Of a stretch of 46,540 nucleotides of DNA, positions 6,004 through 44,352 are shown one piece after another. The notes beneath the pieces were generated by a model. The model did no database searches, had not been told where the DNA came from, and saw nothing but the letters and a program-made list of their open reading frames with translations. Origin of the DNA: Candidatus Gastranaerophilales bacterium (GTDB lineage: Bacteria > Cyanobacteriota > Vampirovibrionia > Gastranaerophilales > Gastranaerophilaceae); contig JAFYOU010000004.1 of the NCBI GenBank assembly GCA_017560095.1, forward strand, positions 1 through 46,540, written 5' to 3'. A program made the translations under genes and the position numbers. Each line of letters starts with the position of its first letter. The stretch's first letter is position 1.

Positions 6004-6047
6004 TAGCATAATGTCTTATGACAATCTCAATAGAGAACTTGCTAACA

Positions 6048-6065
6048 ACTTGCTAACTAGCAAGT
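6048..6065 (+). other. Hairpin preceded by a repeat
   Basis: ACTTGCT (6048-6054), loop AACT, AGCAAGT (6059-6065). The left arm is a direct repeat of 6037-6046 (ACTTGCTAAC), so either copy can pair with AGCAAGT. This gives two alternative stems just before the terminator at 6068. Confidence 0.5.
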
Positions 6066-6067
6066 AT

Positions 6068-6100
6068 AAGAGAACAGGCAAGTCTTGTTCTCTTTTATTT
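6068..6100 (+). terminator. Rho-independent terminator
   Basis: AAGAGAACA (6068-6076) and TGTTCTCTT (6086-6094) form a perfect 9-bp stem with a 9-base loop, followed by TTATTTT. Confidence 0.8.
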
Positions 6101-6118
6101 TAAGAAAGGAGAGATAAT

Positions 6119-6565
6119 ATGATACAAGCATTACAAATTTTACCACAAGCATTAACAAGCAATACTGATGATATTAACTTCACAACAGTTGATTTAAGAA
6201 CAGGGAGTGCTAGTTGTAATGGATGGTTACAATATAATCCAGGTTCAAGTAATTTTACTTTAATTGGTGGAGGAGTGTTTGAAATAACATTCAATGCTAA
6301 TGTTACAAGTGCATCAACAGGTCAAGTAGCAATAGCATTAAAATCAGGTGGAAGTGATATAGAAGGAACTGAAATGGATGAACAAATAACAACTGCTAAC
6401 ACTTATCGTAGTATATCAATGTCAAAAGTAATAAGAGTGTGTCCTAAGACTAATACTACAATTAGTGTAGGTTCTTTACCAGCAATTGGTGGAGTAACAC
6501 CTGCTGTTTCTACACAAATCCCAATTATTAAAGATGCTAATTTTGTCATTCGTAGAATTGCTTAA
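6119..6565 (+). CDS. Jelly-roll (BclA/TNF-like) surface protein candidate
   Basis: 148 residues, beta-rich, with NGWLQYNPGSSNFTLIGGGVFEITFNANVTS (about 34-64), GQVAIALKSGG (68-78) and a C-terminal strand ANFVIRRIA. The succession of strands and the pattern GGGVFEITFNANV resemble the TNF/BclA-like trimeric jelly-roll found in phage head fibres and exosporium proteins. A virion decoration or host-binding role is inferred from this resemblance. AAGGAGAGATAAT precedes the start, and the gene follows a terminator, so it may rely on read-through or an unrecognised promoter. Confidence 0.45.
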   Translation: MIQALQILPQALTSNTDDINFTTVDLRTGSASCNGWLQYNPGSSNFTLIGGGVFEITFNANVTSASTGQVAIALKSGGSDIEGTEMDEQITTANTYRSISMSKVIRVCPKTNTTISVGSLPAIGGVTPAVSTQIPIIKDANFVIRRIA

Positions 6566-6792: not shown

Positions 6793-7244
6793 TGGGAAAA
6801 ATAAAAAAATACATTGATATGATAGTCGATAATGGCAAAAGAGAAGAAATGGAATGTTTAAGCGATATGCTAAGTGATGTAATATATATGCTTAAAGATG
6901 AACACTATGACAAATATGAAAAATATAAAATGAAATTGTATGGTATGGCTTATGGCTATCAATTTAATGAAGATATGGCACATGAAATAGTAGAAGATAT
7001 GAAGCCACTTGGTGAATATTGGGATATGAAAACAACTACAAGTGTTAAAAATCAATATAGCATCAATGTTGATGATTGTACATTTTATGTTGTTATGAAT
7101 AGTTTGGTTAATGATTATCACGATGCAATTAACCCTGAAGAAGTTGAAACTTATGTTAAAATGGCTTATGCATTTATTAACGATGAAGATGCAAAACGTG
7201 ATAAAGTTTGGAAATATTTTACAACCATTCCAAATAGAGATTGA
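6792..7244 (+). CDS. Conserved hypothetical gut-phage protein
   Basis: A 150-residue soluble, acidic, helical protein. The central and C-terminal parts (MKPLGEYWDMKTTTSV; FYVVMNSLVNDYHDA; YVKMAYAFINDEDAKRDKVWKYFTTIP) match a pattern I associate with an uncharacterised family found next to the preceding coiled-coil gene in many gut phages. No enzyme motif is visible. Its last codons overlap the -35 box of a promoter at 7241. Confidence 0.6.
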   Translation: MGKIKKYIDMIVDNGKREEMECLSDMLSDVIYMLKDEHYDKYEKYKMKLYGMAYGYQFNEDMAHEIVEDMKPLGEYWDMKTTTSVKNQYSINVDDCTFYVVMNSLVNDYHDAINPEEVETYVKMAYAFINDEDAKRDKVWKYFTTIPNRD

Positions 7245-7269
7245 CAATTGTTTTAATATGTGATAATAT
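7241..7269 (+). promoter_or_regulatory. Strong promoter for a second untranslated unit
   Basis: TTGACA (7241-7246), 17-base spacer, TAATAT (7264-7269). The -35 overlaps the stop codon of the upstream gene. The expected start site (about 7276) coincides with the first base of a 14-bp perfect stem. Confidence 0.75.
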
Positions 7270-7275
7270 TAGGAT

Positions 7276-7385
7276 GCAAATAAACGTTAGATTATAGCGA
7301 CATAATACTGTTTGTATTAACGTTTATTTGCTTTCTTTTCAAAACTATTTTTTATAAAAAAAGAACTGCTATTAGTTCTTTTTTT
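7276..7385 (+). ncRNA. Putative small RNA with 14-bp 5' stem
   Basis: GCAAATAAACGTTA (7276-7289) is the exact reverse complement of 7318-7331, giving a 14-bp stem with a 28-base loop that can itself form TAATAC/GTATTA. The stem is followed by CTTTCTTTTC and then by a perfect terminator at 7356-7385. There is no reading frame. The transcript would end either after the first stem (about 60 bases) or at the second (about 110). It is convergent with the RuvC gene, so it may also be antisense to that mRNA's 3' end. Confidence 0.5.
7356..7385. terminator. Bidirectional terminator
   Basis: AAAAAAAGAACT (7356-7367) and AGTTCTTTTTTT (7374-7385) form a perfect 12-bp stem with a 6-base loop; both strands end in a T run. 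It serves the rightward small RNA and the leftward RuvC operon. The stop codon of the RuvC gene (7372-7374) lies inside it. Confidence 0.85.
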
Positions 7386-7851
7386 GCTTATCTAACCAAG
7401 TTATTCCAACTGCATAAGCACTCCATACATCTTTTTTAAATCCATAAAAGAAATCCTTGTCTTTTTTTGTTCCTTTACCATTTTTGAAATCAAATTTTGC
7501 AAATCTATCTATTAATGCTTGTCTTATATTGCTATCCTTTGCTTTCATAGAATGGCATAAATTCATTTTTTCTTCTCTCCTGTATATATATTCATAATCA
7601 GGGCATTTTCTTTTTTGTATAAATCTACCAATCCAAACACAAGTATCAAAAATACTAGCACCAACTGCCATACCATATGAGGCAATCATTTCTATTATTA
7701 ATTTATCATATTGTAACTCATTTAATTTAATCAACATTGAATGATTATCTATTTTTCCAAATTCTATTGGAGTGTATGTGTCTTTATCAATTATGCAATA
7801 TGCACTCTCTATATTTCCTGGGTCGATTGATAATATGTAATTATTTTTCAT
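7372..7851 (-). CDS. RuvC-like Holliday junction resolvase
   Basis: 159 residues with an RNase H-like fold pattern: ILSIDPGNIESAYC at 6-19 (first catalytic Asp, D10), KLIIEMIASYG at 50-60 (E54), and KDVWSAYAVGITWLDK at 140-155 (D141, the C-terminal acidic residue). The spacing fits RuvC, normally about 170 residues. It should cut branched DNA during recombination or clear junctions before packaging. It is transcribed leftward with the upstream coiled-coil gene, with which it overlaps by 11 bases, away from the terminase operon. Phage RuvC enzymes are often found next to terminase genes. Confidence 0.8.
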   Translation of the reverse strand: MKNNYILSIDPGNIESAYCIIDKDTYTPIEFGKIDNHSMLIKLNELQYDKLIIEMIASYGMAVGASIFDTCVWIGRFIQKRKCPDYEYIYRREEKMNLCHSMKAKDSNIRQALIDRFAKFDFKNGKGTKKDKDFFYGFKKDVWSAYAVGITWLDKQKKN

Positions 7852-17736: not shown

Positions 17737-17740
17737 ATTG

Positions 17741-18379
17741 ATGGATAATGAAACAAGAATATCACTTAGTTTTAAAAATGACGTAACTGGTGATGAAAAG
17801 TTAAAAGAATATGAGAAGCGACTTAAAACTATTTATTCTATGCTTGATGCCTTTAATACAGGAAAAGCAAAAAATATTTCTCTTGTAGAAAAAGAAACAA
17901 AACAACTTGGAAATACTACAGCAAATGTTGCAAAATCAAACGATAAAATGGCAAAACAATTTGATAGTATGTTCAAGACAGGGGGATTGTTTTTATATAC
18001 AAGACAATTATCAAAGTTAATTAAAACAATGGCAAGTGCAACTCAATTAAGTGTTGATTATGTTGAAAACACAAACTTATTGGAAGTTGCTTATGCAAGA
18101 ACAGCAAATAGTACAGAAGATTACAATCAAGCAGTAGAAGAAAGTTCTAAAAAAGTAAAAGGCTTAATCGACCAAATGTCTAAAGTTTACGGATTTGATG
18201 AAAACCGTTTAACAAGAAGTTTTGGTATTTTTAAGCAAATGGCTAATGCTATGAAATTACCAGATGAAACAGCAGAGAACTTATCAGAACATTTAGTTAA
18301 AATGTCTAACGATATAGCATCTTTATACAACTTAGATTTGAAAAGAGCAGAAAATGCTTTGCAAAGTGCTTTAGCGGGT
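17741..18379 (+). CDS. Tape measure protein, exon 1
   Basis: First 213 residues of the tape measure protein: a coiled-coil N-terminus (KLKEYEKRLKTIYSMLDAFNTG) and FDSMFKTGGLFLYTRQLSKLIKTMASATQLSVDYVENTNLLEVAYARTA, then ALQSALAG. The frame hits TAG immediately after GGT (18377-18379), exactly where a group I intron starts; exon 2 (19251-22034) continues with QVRPIR in phase. ATG 17741 follows AAAGGAGAG; the TTG three bases earlier is not needed. The spliced protein is about 1140 residues, setting tail length. Confidence 0.85.
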
Positions 18380-19250
18380 TAGTAACTTGGCTCGCTTAAA
18401 ACCTACTAAATGCTGGAACACCCTAAAGGCTTTGATACCAAAGTGTAACAATTCAAAGTATGAAACAATGGGCAATCAGCAGGCTATTTACAAATTAGGT
18501 CGATTACGATATACTATTGCTAGGTGATAGTATGAAAGAAGTAAAATGGAAACCTATAAATGGATTTGAAGATTATGAAATAAGTAATTATGGCATTGTT
18601 AGAAGAATAAGATACAATAATGCTGGTAACAAATCACAATATAAATTACCTTATTATATAAAGCCTAAATTGGATAAAGATGGGTATTTAAAATACACAT
18701 TGTGTAAAAATGGTAAAAACAAATGTATTTTTGCACATAGATTAGTTGCGTTACATTTTATTCCAAATCCTAAAAATAAACCCCAAGTAAATCATAAAAA
18801 CGGTAAAAAACAAGATAATAGAGTTAAAAATCTTGAATGGTGTACACAAAAAGAAAATAATAAACACGCATTAAAAACAGGATTAAGAAATATGAAGAAT
18901 AATAAAATGTCAAAAGTAGTTATTCAAAAAGATAAAGATGGAAACATAATACAAGAATATAAAAGTAGCGGAGATGCTGGAAGAATAAATAATTTTCATT
19001 CATCACATATACGAGATTGTTGTAGAGGTGTGTTAAAGACATATAAAGGATTTATTTGGGAATACAAAAGTAAATAACCTCAAAGACTATCGAAAACACA
19101 TAGAAATATGGAAGTTAGTAGAGTACATTCAAGCGAATGGAAACGGTAGGCAATTAGAAATAATTGAAGATATAGTCTGTCTTATATGAAAGTATAAGGA
19201 GTTCATAAGAGAACCGTACATATTTAGCGAATATGTATGAAATACGAACA
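18380..19250 (+). ncRNA. Group I self-splicing intron in tape measure gene
   Basis: P1: exon AGCGGGT (18373-18379) pairs with GCTCGCT (18390-18396), ending with the usual U-G wobble at the splice site. P3: CTACTAA (18403-18409) with TTAGTAG (19115-19121). P4: TGCTG (18411-18415) with CAGCA (18477-18481). P7: GACTAT (19085-19090) with ATAGTC (19172-19177). P8: CATTC/GAATG (19126-19139). P10: AACTTG (18384-18389) with exon 2 CAAGTT (19251-19256). These are all core helices of a group I intron. The homing endonuclease gene lies between P4 and P7. The 3' boundary is the less certain end: the last base before CAAGTT is A, not the usual G. Confidence 0.85.
18532..19077 (+). CDS. Intron-encoded HNH homing endonuclease
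   Basis: 181 residues. NUMOD4 domain at the start (EVKWKPINGFEDYEISNYGIVRR), HNH_3-type core (IFAHRLVALHFIPNPKNKPQVNHKNGKKQDNRVKNLEWCTQKENNKHA, about 65-115), with the two catalytic histidine positions and the LEWCT motif, then a NUMOD1-like tail (SSGDAGRINNFHSSHIRDCCRGVLKTYKGFIWEYK). It cuts intron-less alleles and spreads the intron. ATG 18532 follows TAGGTGAT; the TTG at 18517 is less likely. It has its own stop, so it is translated from the unspliced or excised RNA. Confidence 0.88.
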   Translation: MKEVKWKPINGFEDYEISNYGIVRRIRYNNAGNKSQYKLPYYIKPKLDKDGYLKYTLCKNGKNKCIFAHRLVALHFIPNPKNKPQVNHKNGKKQDNRVKNLEWCTQKENNKHALKTGLRNMKNNKMSKVVIQKDKDGNIIQEYKSSGDAGRINNFHSSHIRDCCRGVLKTYKGFIWEYKSK

Positions 19251-22034
19251 CAAGTTCGCCCCATAAGAACAGCGACAGGGGCTGATATTACTGAAAAAAC
19301 ACTTCAGGGAACTGTTGATAAATTAGGTTTAGATAAAAGTATAAGTGACCTATCATATGTTGAAAAAAGGTTAATAATGGTAATTTCATTAACAGAACAA
19401 TTAAAAAAATCACAGGGGGACTATGGCCGTACGATAGAAAGCAGTTCAAATCAAATTCGTGTTATGAAAGAACAATGGGCAAGGCTTTCAAGAGCAGTTG
19501 GTAATGTATTTTTACCAATATTACAAGCAGTTTTGCCTTACATAAATGCAATATTAATGGTTTTAACCAAAGTATTTAATATGTTGGCAAGTTTACTTGG
19601 ATTTAAAATGCCAAAATTTGACTATAGTGGACTAGCAAAAGTTGATGATGCTGTTAGTGATGTTGTAGATGGAATGGATGATGTTTCTGATAGTGCAGGT
19701 AATGCTGGTAAAGCAGTAGATAAATTAAAAGATAAAATGTCAGGACTAAGAGGATTTGATAAACTTAATGTAATAAATTCTCCAAGTGACAAAGGTAGTA
19801 GTGGTTCTGGTTCTGGTTCTGGTGGTGGTGCTGGAGGTGGAATAGACCCAGCAATATTAGATGCTTTTAATGATATTTTTGGAAAATATGATGATATGCT
19901 TGATGGTATCAAAATGAAAGCAACAAAAATAGCAGAAGCATTTGAGGCTTGGGCTACTTGCTTAAAGCCATTAGAAAAACCTCTAAAAGAAATAGCAGGG
20001 CTTACTTATTCAGGATTAATCTATGTATGGAATAATGTGTTAAAACCACTAGCAAAATGGACTGCATATAAATTGATACCTCAATTAGTAAAAACAACAG
20101 CAAGTGCTTTAGAAGTAGTTTATGAAGTAGGTAAAGTACTATTTAAAATATATAAAACTATTTATGAAACAATAGTATTACCATTTGCAAGGTCAATAGG
20201 AAATGCAATAATAAACACATTAAAAGTTGTTGCTAATGTTTTAAATGCAATATCAAAAAGCAAAGTTGCAACTACTTTGTTAGCATTGGCAGTAGCATTT
20301 ACAAGATTGAAAACAGTTGCAAATTTATTCATAAAAACTAAAATAGGGGGATATTTAAGTACTTTTGGTTCATTATTATTAGAACCAATCAAAGGAACAA
20401 GAAATTTAACAACAGTATGGAAGAATTTTATTTCTCTTGTAACACCTTTAAAACTAAAAAGTATTACAGGTGAATTAACAACAATGCAAAAAGCAACTAC
20501 AATTTTAGGTAATGCTATGAAAGCATTAGGAACAATAGTAGCAGGAGTATTAATATCTTTTGCAGGATTTCAAGTCTTAAAAGGAAGTCTTGAAGATATT
20601 AGTGAAAATGGTGCTAAAGTTGGTAATGTTTTGGGTGCTTTAGCAGGTTCAGTTATGGTTGCAGTTGGTGCAGTAACAGCACTTAATGCTATAACAGCAA
20701 TTTTTGGAGTAACATTAACTGCATTACCAATCATAGGAGTAGTTGCAGGATTAACTTCATTAGGAGTTGCTATTGCAGGGATAATATCTTCTCAACAAGA
20801 ATTCTCATCAGGAGCAGGATATACAAAGAAAGCAATAAGTGAAATTGATGAGGCTTACAAAGATTTAGATAAAACATTGGGTGATTTAAGTAAATCACAT
20901 AAAGAAGCAATGGATGGTTTTACTAAAAGTTATGAAGCCAAATTAATGGAATTAGAAGGCTCTAAAGCCTACATTGATGCTTTAGATGATGTAGTTGATG
21001 GCAATTATAGAGTTAAACAAGGATATGAGAGTGTTGCTGAAACTATATTAGGTAAGTTAAATGATGCTTATGGCGCTGAATTAAAACTTGAAGATGGAGT
21101 TATCAAAAATGGTAATGATATAGTAAATGGCAAAACAAAAATGATAAATATAACTGACCAATATATAGAAGCAGTTAAAAAACAAACTTTATATGAAGGT
21201 TATCAAACTATGTATAAAAAAGCAATAGATGACCAAATAGAAGCAAAAATACAGTATAAAAAGACTACCGACCAAATTAACACATCATTGGAAGAAACAG
21301 CAAAGAAATTGAAAAATGGAGAAATAACGGCAGACCAAGCAGGTAAAGTTGCTAAATCAGCCCACGAAAAGCAAGAAAAAGCAGTCAAAAAGTACAAAAA
21401 AGTTTTAGGCGAAACAAACGGTGTAATTAGTGGTTTGGATGATGTTACAAAAGCATATGCAAAAGGTTCTTCAAAAGAGTTAGAAGAAACGATTGTAAAA
21501 GTATCATCAACTTCAAAAAAAGCAAATATTGAAACAGACAAATCATTTGACTATAACTATAAAAAATTGAAAGAAACAATCAAAAAAGTTAAAGACGACC
21601 ACGATAAAACACTTCAAAAAATGAGAAATAACTCAAAATTGACTGTTGAAATGAAGTTAGATACCAGCAAAGCAGTAAAAGCATACAACAAGTTTGCTAG
21701 TGACATAAATCAAAGTTCTGGTGGAGGTTCACCAATCTTAAAATATATTCCAACAGCAAAAACATATGCAACAGGTGGTTTGCCTAAAGTAGGTCAATTA
21801 TTTGTTGCCAATGAACAAGGTCCTGAACTTGTTGGTAACATAGGTGGACAATCATTTGTAGCAAACCAAAATCAAATGATGGATTTATTAGACAGAAAGA
21901 TTGGTAATGCTCAATCTAAGCCAATGAATGCAACATTTGTTATTCAAGTAGGTAGCAAAGAAGTTGCAAGACAAGTAATAACAGATTTACAAGGAATGGC
22001 AAAAACTAATGGTAAGCCAATTACAATAGGGTAA
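19251..22034 (+). CDS. Tape measure protein, exon 2
   Basis: The in-frame continuation of the tape measure protein starts QVRPIRTATGADITEKTLQGTVDKLGLDKSISDLSYVEKRLI. 927 residues follow: a hydrophobic segment region (about 300-530 of this part, with AVAFTRLKTVANLF and GTIVAGVLISFAGFQVL), a Gly/Ser hinge SGSGSGSGGGAGGG, and a C-terminal region PKVGQLFVANEQGPELVGNIGGQSFVANQNQM typical of tape measure C-termini. An ATG at 19233 lies in the intron and is not a start. The hydrophobic helices likely enter the host membrane during DNA ejection. Confidence 0.85.
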   Translation, partial: QVRPIRTATGADITEKTLQGTVDKLGLDKSISDLSYVEKRLIMVISLTEQLKKSQGDYGRTIESSSNQIRVMKEQWARLSRAVGNVFLPILQAVLPYINAILMVLTKVFNMLASLLGFKMPKFDYSGLAKVDDAVSDVVDGMDDVSDSAGNAGKAVDKLKDKMSGLRGFDKLNVINSPSDKGSSGSGSGSGGGAGGGIDPAILDAFNDIFGKYDDMLDGIKMKATKIAEAFEAWATCLKPLEKPLKEIAGLTYSGLIYVWNNVLKPLAKWTAYKLIPQLVKTTASALEVVYEVGKVLFKIYKTIYETIVLPFARSIGNAIINTLKVVANVLNAISKSKVATTLLALAVAFTRLKTVANLFIKTKIGGYLSTFGSLLLEPIKGTRNLTTVWKNFISLVTPLKLKSITGELTTMQKATTILGNAMKALGTIVAGVLISFAGFQVLKGSLEDISENGAKVGNVLGALAGSVMVAVGAVTALNAITAIFGVTLTALPIIGVVAGLTSLGVAIAGIISSQQEFSSGAGYTKKAISEIDEAYKDLDKTLGDLSKSHKEAMDGFTKSYEAKLMELEGSKAYIDALDDVVDGNYRVKQGYESVAETILGKLNDAYGAELKLEDGVIKNGNDIVNGKTKMINITDQYIEAVKKQTLYEGYQTMYKKAIDDQIEAKIQYKKTTDQINTSLEETAKKLKNGEITADQAGKVAKSAHEKQEKAVKKYKKVLGETNGVISGLDDVTKAYAKGSSKELEETIVKVSSTSKKANIETDKSFDYNYKKLKETIKKVKDDHDKTLQKMRNNSKLTVEMKLDTSKAVKAYNKFASDINQSSGGGSPILKYIPTAKTYATGGLPKVGQLFVANEQGPELVGNIGGQSFVANQNQMMDLLDRKIGNAQSKPMNATFVIQVGSKEVARQVITDLQGMAKTNGKPITIG

Positions 22035-34612: not shown

Positions 34613-35411
34613 TGAAATAACAAAATCAAATGCAAGTAATAAAATTGGATTTACAAGTTATATAACATCTAATACTATTACAAAAAAAATAAATGGAATA
34701 ATTGGTGATGAAAAAAGAGGAGCAAGATTTATTTCAGGTATGGTAAGTGCTGTTAATGCTAACCCTGCACTAAAAAAATGTGACCCACAAAGTATTATTA
34801 GTGGTGCATTACTTGGAGAAAGCCTTAACTTAAGTCCATCACCACAATTAGGTCAATATTATTTAGTTCCTTACAATGATAAGTCAAGAGGACCAATAGC
34901 AACTTATCAAATGGGATATAAAGGTTATATTCAATTAGCAATTCGTAGTGGTCAATATAAAAAACTTAATGTACTTGCTATTAAAGAAGGTGAATTAATT
35001 AAATATGACCCACTTAATGAAGAAATAGAAGTACAATTAATTGAAGATGAAGAAAAAAGAGAAAGTGCTAAAACTATCGGTTATTATGCCATGTTCGAAT
35101 ATGTCAACGGATTTAGAAAAACTATGTATTGGAGCAAATCACGTATGGAAAAACATGCATTACAATATTCAAAGGGGTATGCAAAAAAATCTGGATACAC
35201 ATTTTGGGAAAAAGACTTTGATGCTATGGCATATAAAACTATGTTAAGACAATTAATTTCTAAATGGGGTGTTATGAGTGTTGATATGCAACAAGCATTT
35301 GAAGGTGATATGGCAGTAATTAACGAAGATGGTTCTAAAGATTATGTTGATAATGGTGATGATTTTGTTGTAGTTGAAGAACCTAAAGAAGTTAGTTTAG
35401 ATGAAATATAG
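34605..35411 (+). CDS. recT: RecT family single-strand annealing protein
   Basis: 268 residues. Conserved RecT core: ARFISGMVSAVNANPALKKCDPQSIISGALLGESLNLSPSPQLGQYYLVPYND, then YQMGYKGYIQLAIRSGQYKKL, FEYVNGFRKTMYWSKSRMEKHA, DAMAYKTMLRQLISKWGVMS. It anneals complementary single strands during phage recombination. The partner exonuclease is usually encoded next door; here the neighbour is an MBL-fold protein. It overlaps that gene by 11 bases. Confidence 0.92.
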   Translation: MSNEITKSNASNKIGFTSYITSNTITKKINGIIGDEKRGARFISGMVSAVNANPALKKCDPQSIISGALLGESLNLSPSPQLGQYYLVPYNDKSRGPIATYQMGYKGYIQLAIRSGQYKKLNVLAIKEGELIKYDPLNEEIEVQLIEDEEKRESAKTIGYYAMFEYVNGFRKTMYWSKSRMEKHALQYSKGYAKKSGYTFWEKDFDAMAYKTMLRQLISKWGVMSVDMQQAFEGDMAVINEDGSKDYVDNGDDFVVVEEPKEVSLDEI

Positions 35412-36075
35412 TATTATAGGTTCATCATCAAAAGGTAATTGTATAATAGTAGAAGATGTATTAATGCTTGATGTTGGTTTGAGTTATAGTAAAATTAAAA
35501 AATACTTACCAAAAGTTAAATTAATATTTATTTCTCATTCACATCAAGACCATCTTCTATCTAGTACAATTAAAAAGATAGCATACAACTATCCTACAAT
35601 TAAGTTTCTTACAGGTAGCGAAGTTGTAGTTGAAAAGTTAGTAGAATGTGGTGTTAATAAGAAAAACATATATATTCTAAAAAGTAACAAAAAATACGAT
35701 TTAGGACTACTTAAAGTCAAATTGGAAGAATTGTATCACGACACACCAAATTATGCTATGAAATGGGAATATAAAGGTAAAAAGGGAGTGTACATTGTGG
35801 ACACATCTAATGTTGAAGGATTAGTTGCTAGAGATTATGATTTGTACCTAATAGAAAACAATTATCGTGAAGATATATTAGAACAACATCTCAAAGATGC
35901 AATAGATAATGACGATAATAACAAAATATTTTATTTACAAAGAACTATACAAACTCACTTGTCTAAAAGTCAATGTGATAGTTTCTTGATAGAAAATATG
36001 GGTAGTAATTCAGTATATGAATATGTGCATCTATCAAAATATAATAATACTGAAAATGGAGATTTTGATAAATAA
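35401..36075 (+). CDS. MBL-fold nuclease/hydrolase
   Basis: 224 residues with the metallo-beta-lactamase signature: LIFISHSHQDH at 41-51, giving HxHxDH at 46-51, then YHDTPNYAMKWEY, VYIVDTSN and a final QTHLSKSQC (histidine ligand). It resembles the small MBL proteins found beside RecT in phages (YycJ/VicX-type), which are thought to act as the nuclease that prepares ends for RecT. That role is inferred from context. Confidence 0.75.
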   Translation: MKYSIIGSSSKGNCIIVEDVLMLDVGLSYSKIKKYLPKVKLIFISHSHQDHLLSSTIKKIAYNYPTIKFLTGSEVVVEKLVECGVNKKNIYILKSNKKYDLGLLKVKLEELYHDTPNYAMKWEYKGKKGVYIVDTSNVEGLVARDYDLYLIENNYREDILEQHLKDAIDNDDNNKIFYLQRTIQTHLSKSQCDSFLIENMGSNSVYEYVHLSKYNNTENGDFDK

Positions 36076-36092
36076 AATATTTATGATATAAT
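36065..36092 (+). promoter_or_regulatory. Promoter for a third untranslated unit
   Basis: TTGATA (36065-36070), a 16-base spacer and TATAAT (36087-36092). The expected start (36098) coincides with the beginning of a structured element. The -35 is in the last codons of the MBL gene. Confidence 0.65.
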
Positions 36093-36095
36093 AAT

Positions 36096-36190
36096 TATGT
36101 TGAGTAGCAAGAGAGAATTTATATGAGTATATAGGTATGCTACTCAACATATTGTACCTGTATATTCATATAAGTTCTCTTTTGTTTTAT
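36096..36190 (+). ncRNA. Putative small RNA with interlocked inverted repeats
   Basis: Helix A: 13 bp, 36096-36108 with 36139-36151 (core GTTGAGTAGC/GCTACTCAAC). Helix B: 36109-36137 with 36155-36181, about 27 pairs including AAGAGA/TCTCTT, TTATATGA/TCATATAA and AGGTA/TACCT. The 5' arm of B lies in the loop of A, and the 3' arm of A lies in the loop of B, so they are interlocked like a pseudoknot. TTTTGTTTTATT follows. No reading frame. The promoter at 36065 would start it at base 36098. Confidence 0.5.
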
Positions 36191-36210
36191 TCATAGATAG
36201 GAGAGATAAT

Positions 36211-36693
36211 ATGGAAAAAGAAATATGGAAATCAATAGAAAACTATGAAAATTATATGGTAAGTTCTAAAGGAAGAATTGCTAAAATATTAATTGGCGAC
36301 AGTAATGGTAAAGGTTATAGATTTATAAAATTTCCTGATGGTAAGAGAATATACATACATCAAATAGTAGCGAAAGCATTTATACCTAATATTGAAAATC
36401 ACCCAATAATTAATCACATTGATGGCAATAAATTAAATAATTGCGTAGATAATCTTGAATGGTGCAATTATTCTCATAATTGTAAAGAGGCATATAGATT
36501 AAAATTACACATTCCAAAAGGTATACCTGTTGTTCAAAAAACATTAGATGGTATTCTTGTAAAAAAATGGGATAGTATGAGAGAAGCAGAAAGAGGAACA
36601 GGGATTTGTTATCTTTGCATAAGTAGATGTTGTAAAGGTATACTTAAAACATCAGGTGGATATAAATGGGAATTTTACGAAGAAATTGATTGA
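36211..36693 (+). CDS. Free-standing HNH homing endonuclease
   Basis: 160 residues: NUMOD4 (KEIWKSIENYENYMVSSKGRIAKI), HNH_3 core (YIHQIVAKAFIPNIENHPIINHIDGNKLNNCVDNLEWCNYSHNCKEA, about 49-95) and a NUMOD1 tail (VVQKTLDGILVKKWDSMREAERGTGICYLCISRCCKG). It is related in layout to the intron-encoded enzyme, but no intron surrounds it. AGGAGAGATAAT precedes the start. A mobile gene inserted between the MBL gene and small early genes. Confidence 0.85.
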   Translation: MEKEIWKSIENYENYMVSSKGRIAKILIGDSNGKGYRFIKFPDGKRIYIHQIVAKAFIPNIENHPIINHIDGNKLNNCVDNLEWCNYSHNCKEAYRLKLHIPKGIPVVQKTLDGILVKKWDSMREAERGTGICYLCISRCCKGILKTSGGYKWEFYEEID

Positions 36694-36703
36694 AAGGACA
36701 ATT

Positions 36704-36886
36704 ATGGAAGAAGATATAAAATATTTAAAAGAACAAATAGTAAAATTGGCTGAATGGGAAGTTTATAATAGTTATTTATTACAAGTTCTTTTACTAGAAA
36801 AATTAGGAAAAAAAGAAACGACAAAAGTAATGAGAGAATGTCAAAAGTTGACAAAAGAAACATTTGAGGAGGAAAATAATGATTAA
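36704..36886 (+). CDS. 60-residue helical hypothetical protein
   Basis: MEEDIKYLKEQIVKLAEWEVYNSYLLQVLLLEKLGKK and a charged tail. Mostly amphipathic helix. The ATG follows AAAGGAC, so it is translated as the first gene after the HNH. No family recognised. Confidence 0.5.
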   Translation: MEEDIKYLKEQIVKLAEWEVYNSYLLQVLLLEKLGKKETTKVMRECQKLTKETFEEENND

Positions 36887-37046
36887 AATACATTTTGATA
36901 ATAAAGATAGTATTAGAGTAAATTGTACATTAGAAGATTATATAGAATGTATAAAAGAAATTCAAGAAACAAAATATAATACAATAGTTTTAGATAACAA
37001 AGTAATTATAGAATATAGTAAAGTAGTTTATGTTGAGGAGGTATAA
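36879..37046 (+). CDS. 55-residue hypothetical protein
   Basis: ATG 36879 follows GAGGAGGAA. MIKIHFDNKDSIRVNCTLEDYIECIKEIQETK then beta strands VLDNKVIIEYSKVVYVEEV. A compact alpha/beta protein. It overlaps the previous gene by 8 bases. Confidence 0.5.
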   Translation: MIKIHFDNKDSIRVNCTLEDYIECIKEIQETKYNTIVLDNKVIIEYSKVVYVEEV

Positions 37047-37047
37047 T

Positions 37048-37326
37048 ATGAAACTATTTAAAAATTATAAAAAATTATATGAAAGTGAATTAAATAATAG
37101 AAAATTATATGAAGAACAATATAAAAAAATATATGAAGAAAATATAGATTATCAAAAAGAAATTAAATGTTATAAAGAAAAATGTGGAAGATTAACTATT
37201 GATTTAGAAGATGTAGATGGATTACTTAAGCAAGAAACTGAAGCAAAAGAAGAACTATTAAAGCAAAGAAAAAAATTAAGAACAATGATAACTAAATTAG
37301 GTGGTGATTGGAAAGATGCAAAATAA
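37048..37326 (+). CDS. Coiled-coil hypothetical protein
   Basis: 92 residues, Lys/Glu/Tyr-rich, almost wholly helical (KLYESELNNRKLYEEQYKKIYEENIDYQKEIK), with a C-terminal TKLGGDWKDAK. GAGGAGGTATAAT precedes the ATG, which lies one base after the previous stop. It overlaps the next gene by 11 bases. Confidence 0.55.
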   Translation: MKLFKNYKKLYESELNNRKLYEEQYKKIYEENIDYQKEIKCYKEKCGRLTIDLEDVDGLLKQETEAKEELLKQRKKLRTMITKLGGDWKDAK

Positions 37327-39187: not shown

Positions 39188-40093
39188 ATGGAAAATAATT
39201 ACACAGTTTATATGCACATTTTTCCAAACAATAAAGTTTATATTGGGATAACAAACAAAAATGTCAATTCTAGGTGGAGAAAAAATGGCGTTGGATATAC
39301 AAATTGTCCTAGAATGAACAATGCTATAAATAAATATGGTTGGGAAAATGTTGAACATAAAATATTATATGAATATTTAACTAAAGAAGAAGCAGAGCAA
39401 AAAGAAATTGAACTTATTGCACAATATAAAAGTAATTATAGAGAATTTGGTTATAATATTGCTAATGGAGGTATGCACAAAGGGAAATGTAGTGAAGAAA
39501 CCAAAAAGAAAATTAGAAATTCTGGTGCATCAAAAACATTCTTTAAAAAAGGAGAAACTTCTTGGAATAAAGGAATACCACAAAGTAGTGAAGCAAAAGA
39601 AAAAAATAGAATTGCACATATAGGTAAAAAGCAAAGTCAAGAAACAAAATTAAAAAGGAGTAAATCATTAAAAGGACATAGAATGAGTGAAGAAACAAAA
39701 TTAAAAATAAAACAAACAAAACAAGAACATTATCCTAATGGCTATCGTCATTCAATAGAAACAATTAATAAAATTCAAGAAAATAGAAGTAAAATTAGAA
39801 GTGATGAAGCAAAGCATAAGCAATCAAATACAATGAGAGAAAAATATAAAAATGGATATATAAGCCCTATGATTGGTAGAAAAGCAATAAATAGGAAACC
39901 AATTATACAATTAGATTTAAATGACAATTTCATAAGAGAATGGGATTGTATCAGTGATGCTTCAAAATATTATGGAATAAATTCAAGTAGAATATGTCTT
40001 GTGCTAAAGAAAAAAAGAAATCAAACAGCAGGATATAAGTGGATATATAAGAATGAATACAATGTAACAAATGCTATTTTAGGAGGTGTGTAA
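39188..40093 (+). CDS. GIY-YIG homing endonuclease
   Basis: 301 residues. N-terminal GIY-YIG domain (YTVYMHIFPNNKVYIGITNKNVNSRW, with the second YIG intact; the first is YMH), then a region with NUMOD3 repeats (KGKCSEETKKKIRNSG; PQSSEAKEKNRIA; SLKGHRMSEETKLKIK), and a C-terminal NUMOD1 domain (PIIQLDLNDNFIREWDCISDASKYYGINSSRICLVLKKK). It is a free-standing mobile nuclease placed after the recombinase gene. GGAGGTTTT precedes the start. Confidence 0.85.
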   Translation: MENNYTVYMHIFPNNKVYIGITNKNVNSRWRKNGVGYTNCPRMNNAINKYGWENVEHKILYEYLTKEEAEQKEIELIAQYKSNYREFGYNIANGGMHKGKCSEETKKKIRNSGASKTFFKKGETSWNKGIPQSSEAKEKNRIAHIGKKQSQETKLKRSKSLKGHRMSEETKLKIKQTKQEHYPNGYRHSIETINKIQENRSKIRSDEAKHKQSNTMREKYKNGYISPMIGRKAINRKPIIQLDLNDNFIREWDCISDASKYYGINSSRICLVLKKKRNQTAGYKWIYKNEYNVTNAILGGV

Positions 40094-43761: not shown

Positions 43762-43798
43762 TGCCATATCATATAAATTTCAAAATATATTAGTCAAA

Positions 43799-44045
43799 GT
43801 ATATTGTTAGCATATATTAGTGTATTTATTACAATATATCCCAAAATATATTGTTTACAGTATATTTACAGTATATTTACAGTATATTTTGCCAATATAA
43901 TGTCAGCAAAACATCATTTGTGTAAAGTTTACATTAACTTTACTTTACATTTTACATTAGATTTTACTGTAAATATACAAATCATTGACTTGTAAACATA
44001 ATATACTATAAATATATAATATAGTCAATATACATTTACTTTACA
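43799..44045. repeat. GTATATT iterons and TGTAAAG motifs
   Basis: Three exact tandem units of TTTACAGTATA (43854-43864, 43865-43875, 43876-43886) put GTATATT at 43860, 43871 and 43882, one per 11 bases; a further GTATATT is at 43799. An inverted copy (TACTGTAAATATA) is at 43965-43977. TGTAAAG lies at 43921-43927 and CTTTACA at 43943-43949 and 44039-44045. No coding frame is convincing in 43762-44350. It looks like a binding region for a replication or partition protein. Confidence 0.5.
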
Positions 44046-44352
44046 TATATATATTATATGTAAATATTTGATAAATATATATAAAAATGTAAATGCCTTT
44101 AATTCCCTATTTAAAGCACCATTTTAGAGAGTTTTAACTATTATAGTATAATTGCACTAAAACTTGATAAATCACTCTAAAAACACCATAAAAATAGCAT
44201 ATAAGACTATACTAATAACATAATATAGTCTTATTTCTTTATTTAAGGTATCATATAGCCTTGAAAATGTCTTTCTAGTGCAATTTATCTAGTCTAATAT
44301 AAAATGCTTTAAAATAGCCTTTAAAATAGCAAAAAATGATATATCTGTAATA

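Follow-up and report, generated by a model that had tools for sequence, protein, structure and literature searches.

Homing endonucleases propagate through DNA cleavage, and their activity needs to be restrained. For those of phage T4 the published account names promoter timing, autorepression by the protein, internal terminators, processing of the transcript and hiding of the ribosome-binding site as means of control, and it describes seven free-standing endonucleases as promoter-less (PMC2988022). In what the same account says of individual genes, I-TevI acts as its own repressor by way of an operator which overlaps its promoter, and seg43 of Aeromonas phage 25 has a very stable hairpin just before a ribosome-binding site which is not hidden (PMC2988022).

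Our computational analysis of the window, by which we mean the whole stretch of 46,540 nucleotides from contig JAFYOU010000004.1 of a Candidatus Gastranaerophilales bacterium, shows a conserved promoter, two covarying interleaved helices, a T-rich stretch, a ribosome-binding site and an endonuclease gene. We read this element as a 5' leader belonging to a mobile homing-endonuclease cassette, most likely working as a transcription attenuator, and give this reading a probability of roughly 0.5. It resembles the hairpins which hide the ribosome-binding sites of I-TevI, I-TevII, I-TevIII, segB and mobE of Aeh1, in that RNA structure together with promoter choice would control a phage homing endonuclease, but these T4-type leaders are described as hiding the ribosome-binding site on longer transcripts, whereas the present leader leaves the site open, has its promoter ahead of the structure and is built of two interleaved helices (PMC2988022). 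Unlike the seven promoter-less T4 endonucleases, the cassette also has its own promoter (PMC2988022). With the seg43 hairpin it shares the stable hairpin before the open ribosome-binding site of a homing endonuclease, although that hairpin is described in this source without an interleaved partner helix or a T-rich stretch (PMC2988022).

At the gathering score Rfam gave no match in the window or in L022/L023, and only two tRNAs in nine further loci. The literature on interleaved repeats, homing-endonuclease leaders, attenuators and pseudoknots, mostly that outside subscription journals, yielded no description of such an element, and together with the absent Rfam match this agrees with an earlier, sequence-only reading of this DNA, to which no described phage element of this layout was known. 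What is new is the topology and the promoter-borne cassette, while a structured homing-endonuclease leader is in itself of a known kind.

Architecture of the element

The element and the gene behind it consist of the following parts.

36065..36092, plus strand: promoter TTGATA-16 nt-TATAAT, with TG one base ahead of the -10 box and 11/12 consensus matches
36096..36109, plus strand: A arm, complementary at 14/14 positions to 36138-36151; predicted transcription start at its first bases
36106..36139, plus strand: B arm (core 36109-36137), 34 contiguous RNA pairs with 36153-36186, G.U counted
36138..36151, plus strand: A' arm, inside the apical loop once B/B' forms
36153..36186, plus strand: B' arm, RNA pairing with 36106-36139, with covariation
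36181..36192, plus strand: T-rich tract in and just past the base of the B/B' stem, putatively terminator-like
36200..36205, plus strand: ribosome-binding site GGAGAG, all six bases of which the predicted B/B' fold leaves unpaired
36211..36693, plus strand: free-standing homing endonuclease gene, NUMOD4 and HNH_3 by Pfam, 160 aa

A and A' (36096-36109 and 36138-36151) form 14 bp with 100% complementarity, one pair more than the 13-bp repeat of the sequence-only reading, whose coordinates hold. As DNA, B and B' (36108-36137 and 36155-36184) are 87% complementary over 30 nt (26/30); the four non-complementary positions, read off both arms, are all G.U in the plus strand RNA, in which the pairing runs to 34 contiguous pairs (36106-36139 with 36153-36186), so that the repeat of nearly 27 pairs proposed earlier is both confirmed and lengthened. 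Along the RNA the arms alternate as A-B-A'-B', in agreement with the interleaving claimed. The statement that the arms share no bases is right in so far as they are nearly separate, but the fully extended helices have a few bases in common, at 36106-36109 and 36138-36139. Given the tight spacing, with A meeting B and B meeting A', it is implausible that both helices are fully formed together, as the topological constraint recognized in the sequence-only reading implies. The arm order is that of H-type pseudoknots; unlike in those, the helices are of 10-15 and more than 20 bp, no more than 3 nt separate A from B, and the two cannot both form fully. A linker of 3 nt is too short to span a helix of 24-34 bp, therefore a complete pseudoknot is unlikely.

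The promoter and the T-rich tail at 36181-36192 were found as previously reported, with transcription predicted to start at about the first base of A. Among the 23 promoter-like sites in 35300-37300 (16.4 expected from shuffles) the element's promoter scores highest (11/12), and a promoter-like site on the minus strand at 36235-36206, from which an antisense transcript across the leader might start, scores 9/12. The start codon of the HNH gene lies 24 nt past the end of B' and 18 nt past the T tract. This gene (36211-36693), which the sequence-only reading did not mention, matches HNH_3 (E 4.9e-8) and NUMOD4 (E 5.8e-7) in Pfam, both above the cut-off. An RNA element with its own promoter is thus retained from the earlier proposal, while leader of the HNH gene is a better name for it than stand-alone small RNA.

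Other repeats and hairpins were noticed by inspection elsewhere in the window. At 7244-7395 a promoter-like TTGACA box stands close before a 19-nt inverted repeat (7271-7289/7318-7336), beyond which lies a terminator-like hairpin; together they make a small-RNA-like unit which by eye is not interleaved. At 6030-6121, ahead of another gene, two alternative hairpins and a T-rich stretch are seen by eye, and the part at 6087-6121 ends like the element, with an 83% match. An A/T-rich block at 43780-44090 carries repeated GTATATTTACAGTA-type direct and inverted repeats and is possibly a replication or partition site.

Insertion of the cassette

In eight of the nine relatives of the upstream metallo-beta-lactamase-fold (MBL) gene that were examined (L004, L005, L006, L022, L023, L101, L102 and L103), MBL directly adjoins the next conserved gene, which corresponds to the window gene near 37045; in the ninth and more distant one (L007, 39% identity) another gene follows MBL. 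Since the two genes are adjacent in relatives, the window carries an insertion made up of the promoter, the element, the HNH gene and at most two small open frames. One of these frames, at 36704, had no relative in the viral collection. With its insertion between genes which adjoin each other in relatives and its HNH_3 and NUMOD4 domains, the unit fits a free-standing homing-endonuclease cassette.

A link to RecT and MBL genes had been proposed in the sequence-only reading, together with a search beside them in other phages. Two members of the family described below (M6 and M7) do precede DUF1351-RecT genes; the link to RecT/MBL, however, is unsupported, and the element goes instead with the endonuclease cassette. 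A RecT/MBL-linked small RNA is rejected in view of the insert-free MBL relatives and of the nine of 13 loci at which the element stands before homing-endonuclease genes. In L214 (5326-7190) a gene which looks by eye like RtcB lies between MBL and the next conserved gene and is flanked on each side by one endonuclease cassette.

A family of 13 loci

Besides the window (M1), 12 further loci have the same layout of promoter, A, B, A', B', T-rich stretch, ribosome-binding site and gene; they emerged from interleaved-helix scans, DNA-pattern searches and covariance models.

M2 and M3: both on one contig, L251/L214
M4: L215/L253
M5: L243
M6: L023
M7: L022, with identical sequence in L130
M8: L269
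M9: L283
M10: L286
M11: L284
M12: L285
M13: L287

At all 13 loci the promoter equivalents score 9.5-11.5 of 12.5, the end of the -10 box is 3-7 nt from A, and the first base of A is 103-127 nt from the start codon. The helices measure 10-15 bp and more than 20 bp, and in the other members too the T-rich stretch lies on the 3' side of the stem. As M1/M4, M9/M10 and M11-M13 are near-copies, the family amounts to about nine independent members.

The interleaved pair in the window has a summed stacking energy of -62 to -64 kcal/mol, against a best value of -38.1 in 100 window-sized, first-order Markov simulations, and the minimum free energy (MFE) of 36090-36200 (111 nt) is -46 (z -9.2), a value which none of 200 shuffles reached. 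In G+C-rich DNA the score alone fails, since controls in mixed loci reached -64.5 and -83.3, and a promoter-filtered scan gave 129 matches against 100 in controls. In 87 loci with a G+C content no higher than 42%, scores of -61.6, -59.8 and -53.4 were obtained for the three elements known at that point, against -44.0 for the best control and -28.0 for the best control with a good promoter. Support for the family is therefore a matter of A/T-rich loci, promoter, layout and covariation, and not of score alone. In the model phages two matches above the control of that scan (L229 and L232) were rejected: both lie within coding genes, their pairing is ragged and the promoter is weak or lacking. A loose-helix scan was swamped by chance pairs, and under its overlap rule the target was absent among the strongest matches listed; a DNA-seed scan missed the element, which a trimmed scan recovered.

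A first DNA pattern matched three viral contigs, two of them interleaved. The final degenerate pattern, which specified B and B' only, matched seven contigs of the viral collection, and in all seven a promoter and an interleaved A/A' were present. A short pattern applied to nine other genomes gave no promoter-led element, L225 showing a weak A/T-rich interleaved pair. From a training set of four members, covariance model R1 found M3 (E 4.3e-7), which was not in that set, and gave no match to M6 or M7 at E up to 1; with model R3, built on eight members, M7 was modest (E 0.0017) and M6 not significant (E 0.13). The membership of M6 and M7 hence rests mainly on architecture. Over 383 genomes of the order R1 matched 13, with the element present in the window's own genome and in G297 and in none of the other 11, while R2 (289 genomes) and R3 (194 genomes), run on partly overlapping draws with stricter filters, matched only the window's own at E at or below 0.001. 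By blastn the window element had no convincing homologue among phages and plasmids, M2 and M8 gave short matches or none among phages, and in 29 genomes of the genus only short A/T-rich stretches were seen among the matches listed. Rfam matches at a loose threshold were discarded, being mostly to microRNA models, which any long hairpin will match. A weak R3 match at L287 9824-9891 (31.6 bits, E 0.007), which the interleaved-helix scan did not call, looks by eye like a shorter version of the interleaving, with helices of about 6 and 14 bp and a terminator-like hairpin behind them, and is a possible mini variant of the element.

Covariation and the RNA nature of the element

As MAFFT misaligned the helices when whole elements were used, each helix was counted on its own alignment. 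The covariation that the sequence-only reading had suggested looking for is present in both. For A/A', with 8 distinct sequences, both-sided changes occur at 8/12 pairs and 96/96 cells are paired; the rows omit M6 and M7, the arms of which were not alignable, and hold one each for M9/M10 and M11-M13, with the inner 12 pairs taken as identical. The covariation score is 0.726, against 0.210 in shuffles (0/500 as high, the shuffles ignoring relatedness) and at most 0.171 when the arms are slid, in which case at most 45% is paired. For B/B', with 8 sequences (M3, M6, M7, M12 and M13 omitted for indels or as near-copies), both-sided changes occur at 10/21 pairs, 97.6% is paired, and the score is 0.415 against 0.233 in shuffles (again 0/500, relatedness ignored), while sliding gave no more than 0.177. 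Further pair types were no more numerous in this helix than in shuffles (406/500). A preliminary pair count, in which M3 and M6 entered only up to relative position 2 and M7 and M8-M13 were absent, took its pairs from predicted folds, and full pairing there is partly by construction.

Across the 13 members the B/B' helix comprises 356 Watson-Crick pairs, 63 G.U pairs and 5 single A.C mismatches. That the odd pairs are G.U on the transcribed strand argues that the element acts as RNA; the RNA-energy scan by which some members were found favours G.U over A.C, and the members found by DNA patterns (M4 and M9-M13) behave alike, with 29 G.U against 3 A.C. Moreover, the plus strand fold is stronger than the minus strand fold in all 13 members. 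Comparison of the members thus indicates that both helices are under selection and that the element is RNA.

These observations bear directly on the idea that the region serves as DNA, as an operator, a cruciform or a homing site recognized by the endonuclease, for which the self-repression of I-TevI at an operator overlapping its promoter is a described precedent (PMC2988022). The G.U bias and the weaker minus-strand folds speak against it, as does the presence of one leader type before both HNH and GIY-YIG-type genes, and the resemblance of the window leader to three empty sites was unconvincing, with 161, 20 and 167 of 300 shuffles at least as good. We judge a DNA operator unlikely on the grounds of G.U bias, strand asymmetry and empty-site comparison, and the DNA reading as a whole, including the cruciform or protein-binding site which the sequence-only reading had named as its alternative, to be highly improbable.

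Folding and proposed mechanism

The predicted energies are about -14 to -20 kcal/mol for A/A' and about -34 to -47 kcal/mol for B/B'. In all seven members folded stepwise (M1-M7) the MFE fold just after A' emerges is A/A', and B/B' becomes lower once enough of B' exists. The computed barrier from A/A' to B/B' is 21-35 kcal/mol in 13/13 members on pseudoknot-free paths only; pseudoknotted intermediates are left out, and the true rearrangement may be much faster. On such paths the A/A' fold could be a lasting trap. A consensus scan of 35300-37300 found no canonical intrinsic terminator: the B/B' hairpin has a loop of about 15 nt, compared with 3-8 in the canonical form, and an A/T-rich stem base, while the T-rich stretch is present. 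With this stretch 3' of B', B/B' is read as a terminator-type hairpin and A/A' as the first-come blocker; because the scan made no call here, we infer the termination step.

According to the attenuator reading, RNA polymerase would start at A, and A' would emerge ahead of B', so that A/A' closes with B trapped in its loop; B' would then be unable to pair fully, and the polymerase would read through into the endonuclease gene. If a bound RNA, a bound protein or slow transcription kept A off A', B/B' as the more stable hairpin would form beside the T-rich stretch and transcription would stop, giving an RNA of about 95 nt. The two states would be mutually exclusive by topology and hardly by way of shared bases, and a DNA-cutting gene would in this manner be kept low and self-limited wherever the cassette lands. 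Besides the leader there may thus be a terminated RNA of about 95 nt. Antisense-driven attenuators of the pT181 repC type likewise have a leader RNA whose pairing decides terminator formation; they depend on a transcript of the opposite strand and on competing arms which share bases, whereas the arms of the present leader are nearly separate and it has no known antisense RNA. The design of clashing folds is probably an on/off switch which travels with nuclease genes.

Control of translation through a hidden ribosome-binding site would agree with the structured leaders by which T4 homing endonucleases are described as regulated (PMC2988022). In the window member, however, GGAGAG (36200-36205) belongs to neither helix, and the MFE fold of 36096-36205 leaves it unpaired, which makes this explanation quite improbable. 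A long near-perfect RNA duplex near the ribosome-binding site could also serve processing or stability, with RNase III cutting B/B' or a 5'-end A/A' helix protecting the mRNA, and with no control of termination; as this leaves the interleaving at 13/13 loci, the double covariation and the T-rich stretch unexplained, we consider it unlikely.

Another reading has the element acting in trans. In the B/B' fold A is mostly single-stranded on the 5' side and A' lies in the loop, and a terminated RNA of about 95 nt would expose both, A as a 5' tail, and might capture a partner copy or a nascent leader; capture would favour B/B' and termination and so provide self-limiting feedback. Among ten representatives the own A-A' duplex is computed at -14.5 to -20.2 kcal/mol and is the strongest of its row in nine, the exception, M4, pairing equally with its near-copy M1, and the A/A' sequences diverge yet stay complementary. 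Such divergence is, however, expected of any cis helix too, some cross pairs are not weak (M5/M11 -15.7, M1/M11 -15.1), part of A in the predicted folds of M1 and M4 pairs with the T-rich stretch, and the short RNA is itself hypothetical. Action in trans is therefore doubtful in our estimation, and we retain the cis-acting attenuator as the preferred reading.

Genes behind the leader

The leader stands before HNH genes at 8/13 loci (M1, M2, M3, M4, M5, M8, M9 and M10), before a GIY-YIG-type gene at 1/13 and before other phage genes at 4/13. Of the six HNH proteins submitted to Pfam (M1, M2, M4, M5, M8 and M9) all showed NUMOD4 above the cut-off and five HNH_3; M3 was assigned to HNH from its first 62 residues, the record ending within the gene. 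The HNH genes of M9 and M10 are interrupted and read as two overlapping frames each, of 105+101 and 103+101 residues, which may reflect decay or a frameshift signal; the split falls at the same place in both (L283 2590-3172 and L286 9901-10483). The broken frames, along with the four loci which lead other genes, count against the attenuator reading.

The protein downstream of M11 is 51% identical over 137 positions to the window endonuclease at 39188, which scores as GIY-YIG in Pfam, whereas the M11 protein (150 residues submitted) showed NUMOD3 only. The window gene itself (39188-40093, GIY-YIG/NUMOD3/NUMOD1) begins 8 nt past the integrase gene, with no room for an interlocked leader, while its relative in L284 does carry one. 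M12 and M13 have leaders nearly identical to that of M11 and the same first codons, soon followed by another phage gene, which is what deletion of the nuclease with retention of the leader would look like. At M5, M8, M9 and M10 the cassette is oriented against a neighbouring gene and therefore needs its own promoter; one pairwise comparison showed the genes next to M5 and M8 to be related (E 3e-19).

Related HNH genes mostly do without the element: of 17 matches to the HNH alignment in 18 related records, some of them partial, 13 lack it and 4 carry it. Five stretches of Lactococcus, Enterococcus and crAss-like phage records contain 15 genes annotated as HNH, I-HmuI or homing endonuclease, and none of these carries it. 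The element is thus no general companion of HNH genes. A second NUMOD4-HNH gene of the window (18517-19077) splits a tape-measure-like gene into 17738-18382 and 19233-22034, and its flanks within 18383-19232 resemble a group I intron by eye, with no Rfam match at the gathering score.

Implications

A more speculative and likewise unlikely extension is that the leader is the self-sensing RNA of a mobile gene, copies of which meet in trans and shut off the nuclease according to copy number, and that it outlives the nuclease. If this were true, a 5' tail and a loop which are complementary and cannot meet within one molecule would recognize each other through dimer formation or by catching a leader still being transcribed, divergence of A/A' would set up separate incompatibility groups, and a surviving leader would be taken over as the promoter-switch of recombination genes. 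If the preferred reading of a cis-acting attenuator is true, the leader would be a portable expression module, common to HNH and GIY-YIG-type nucleases and able to land anywhere with its own promoter, and a small natural model of how the helix formed first can lock a nascent RNA. The loci where the leader is present and the nuclease absent suggest a route by which phages take over such modules.
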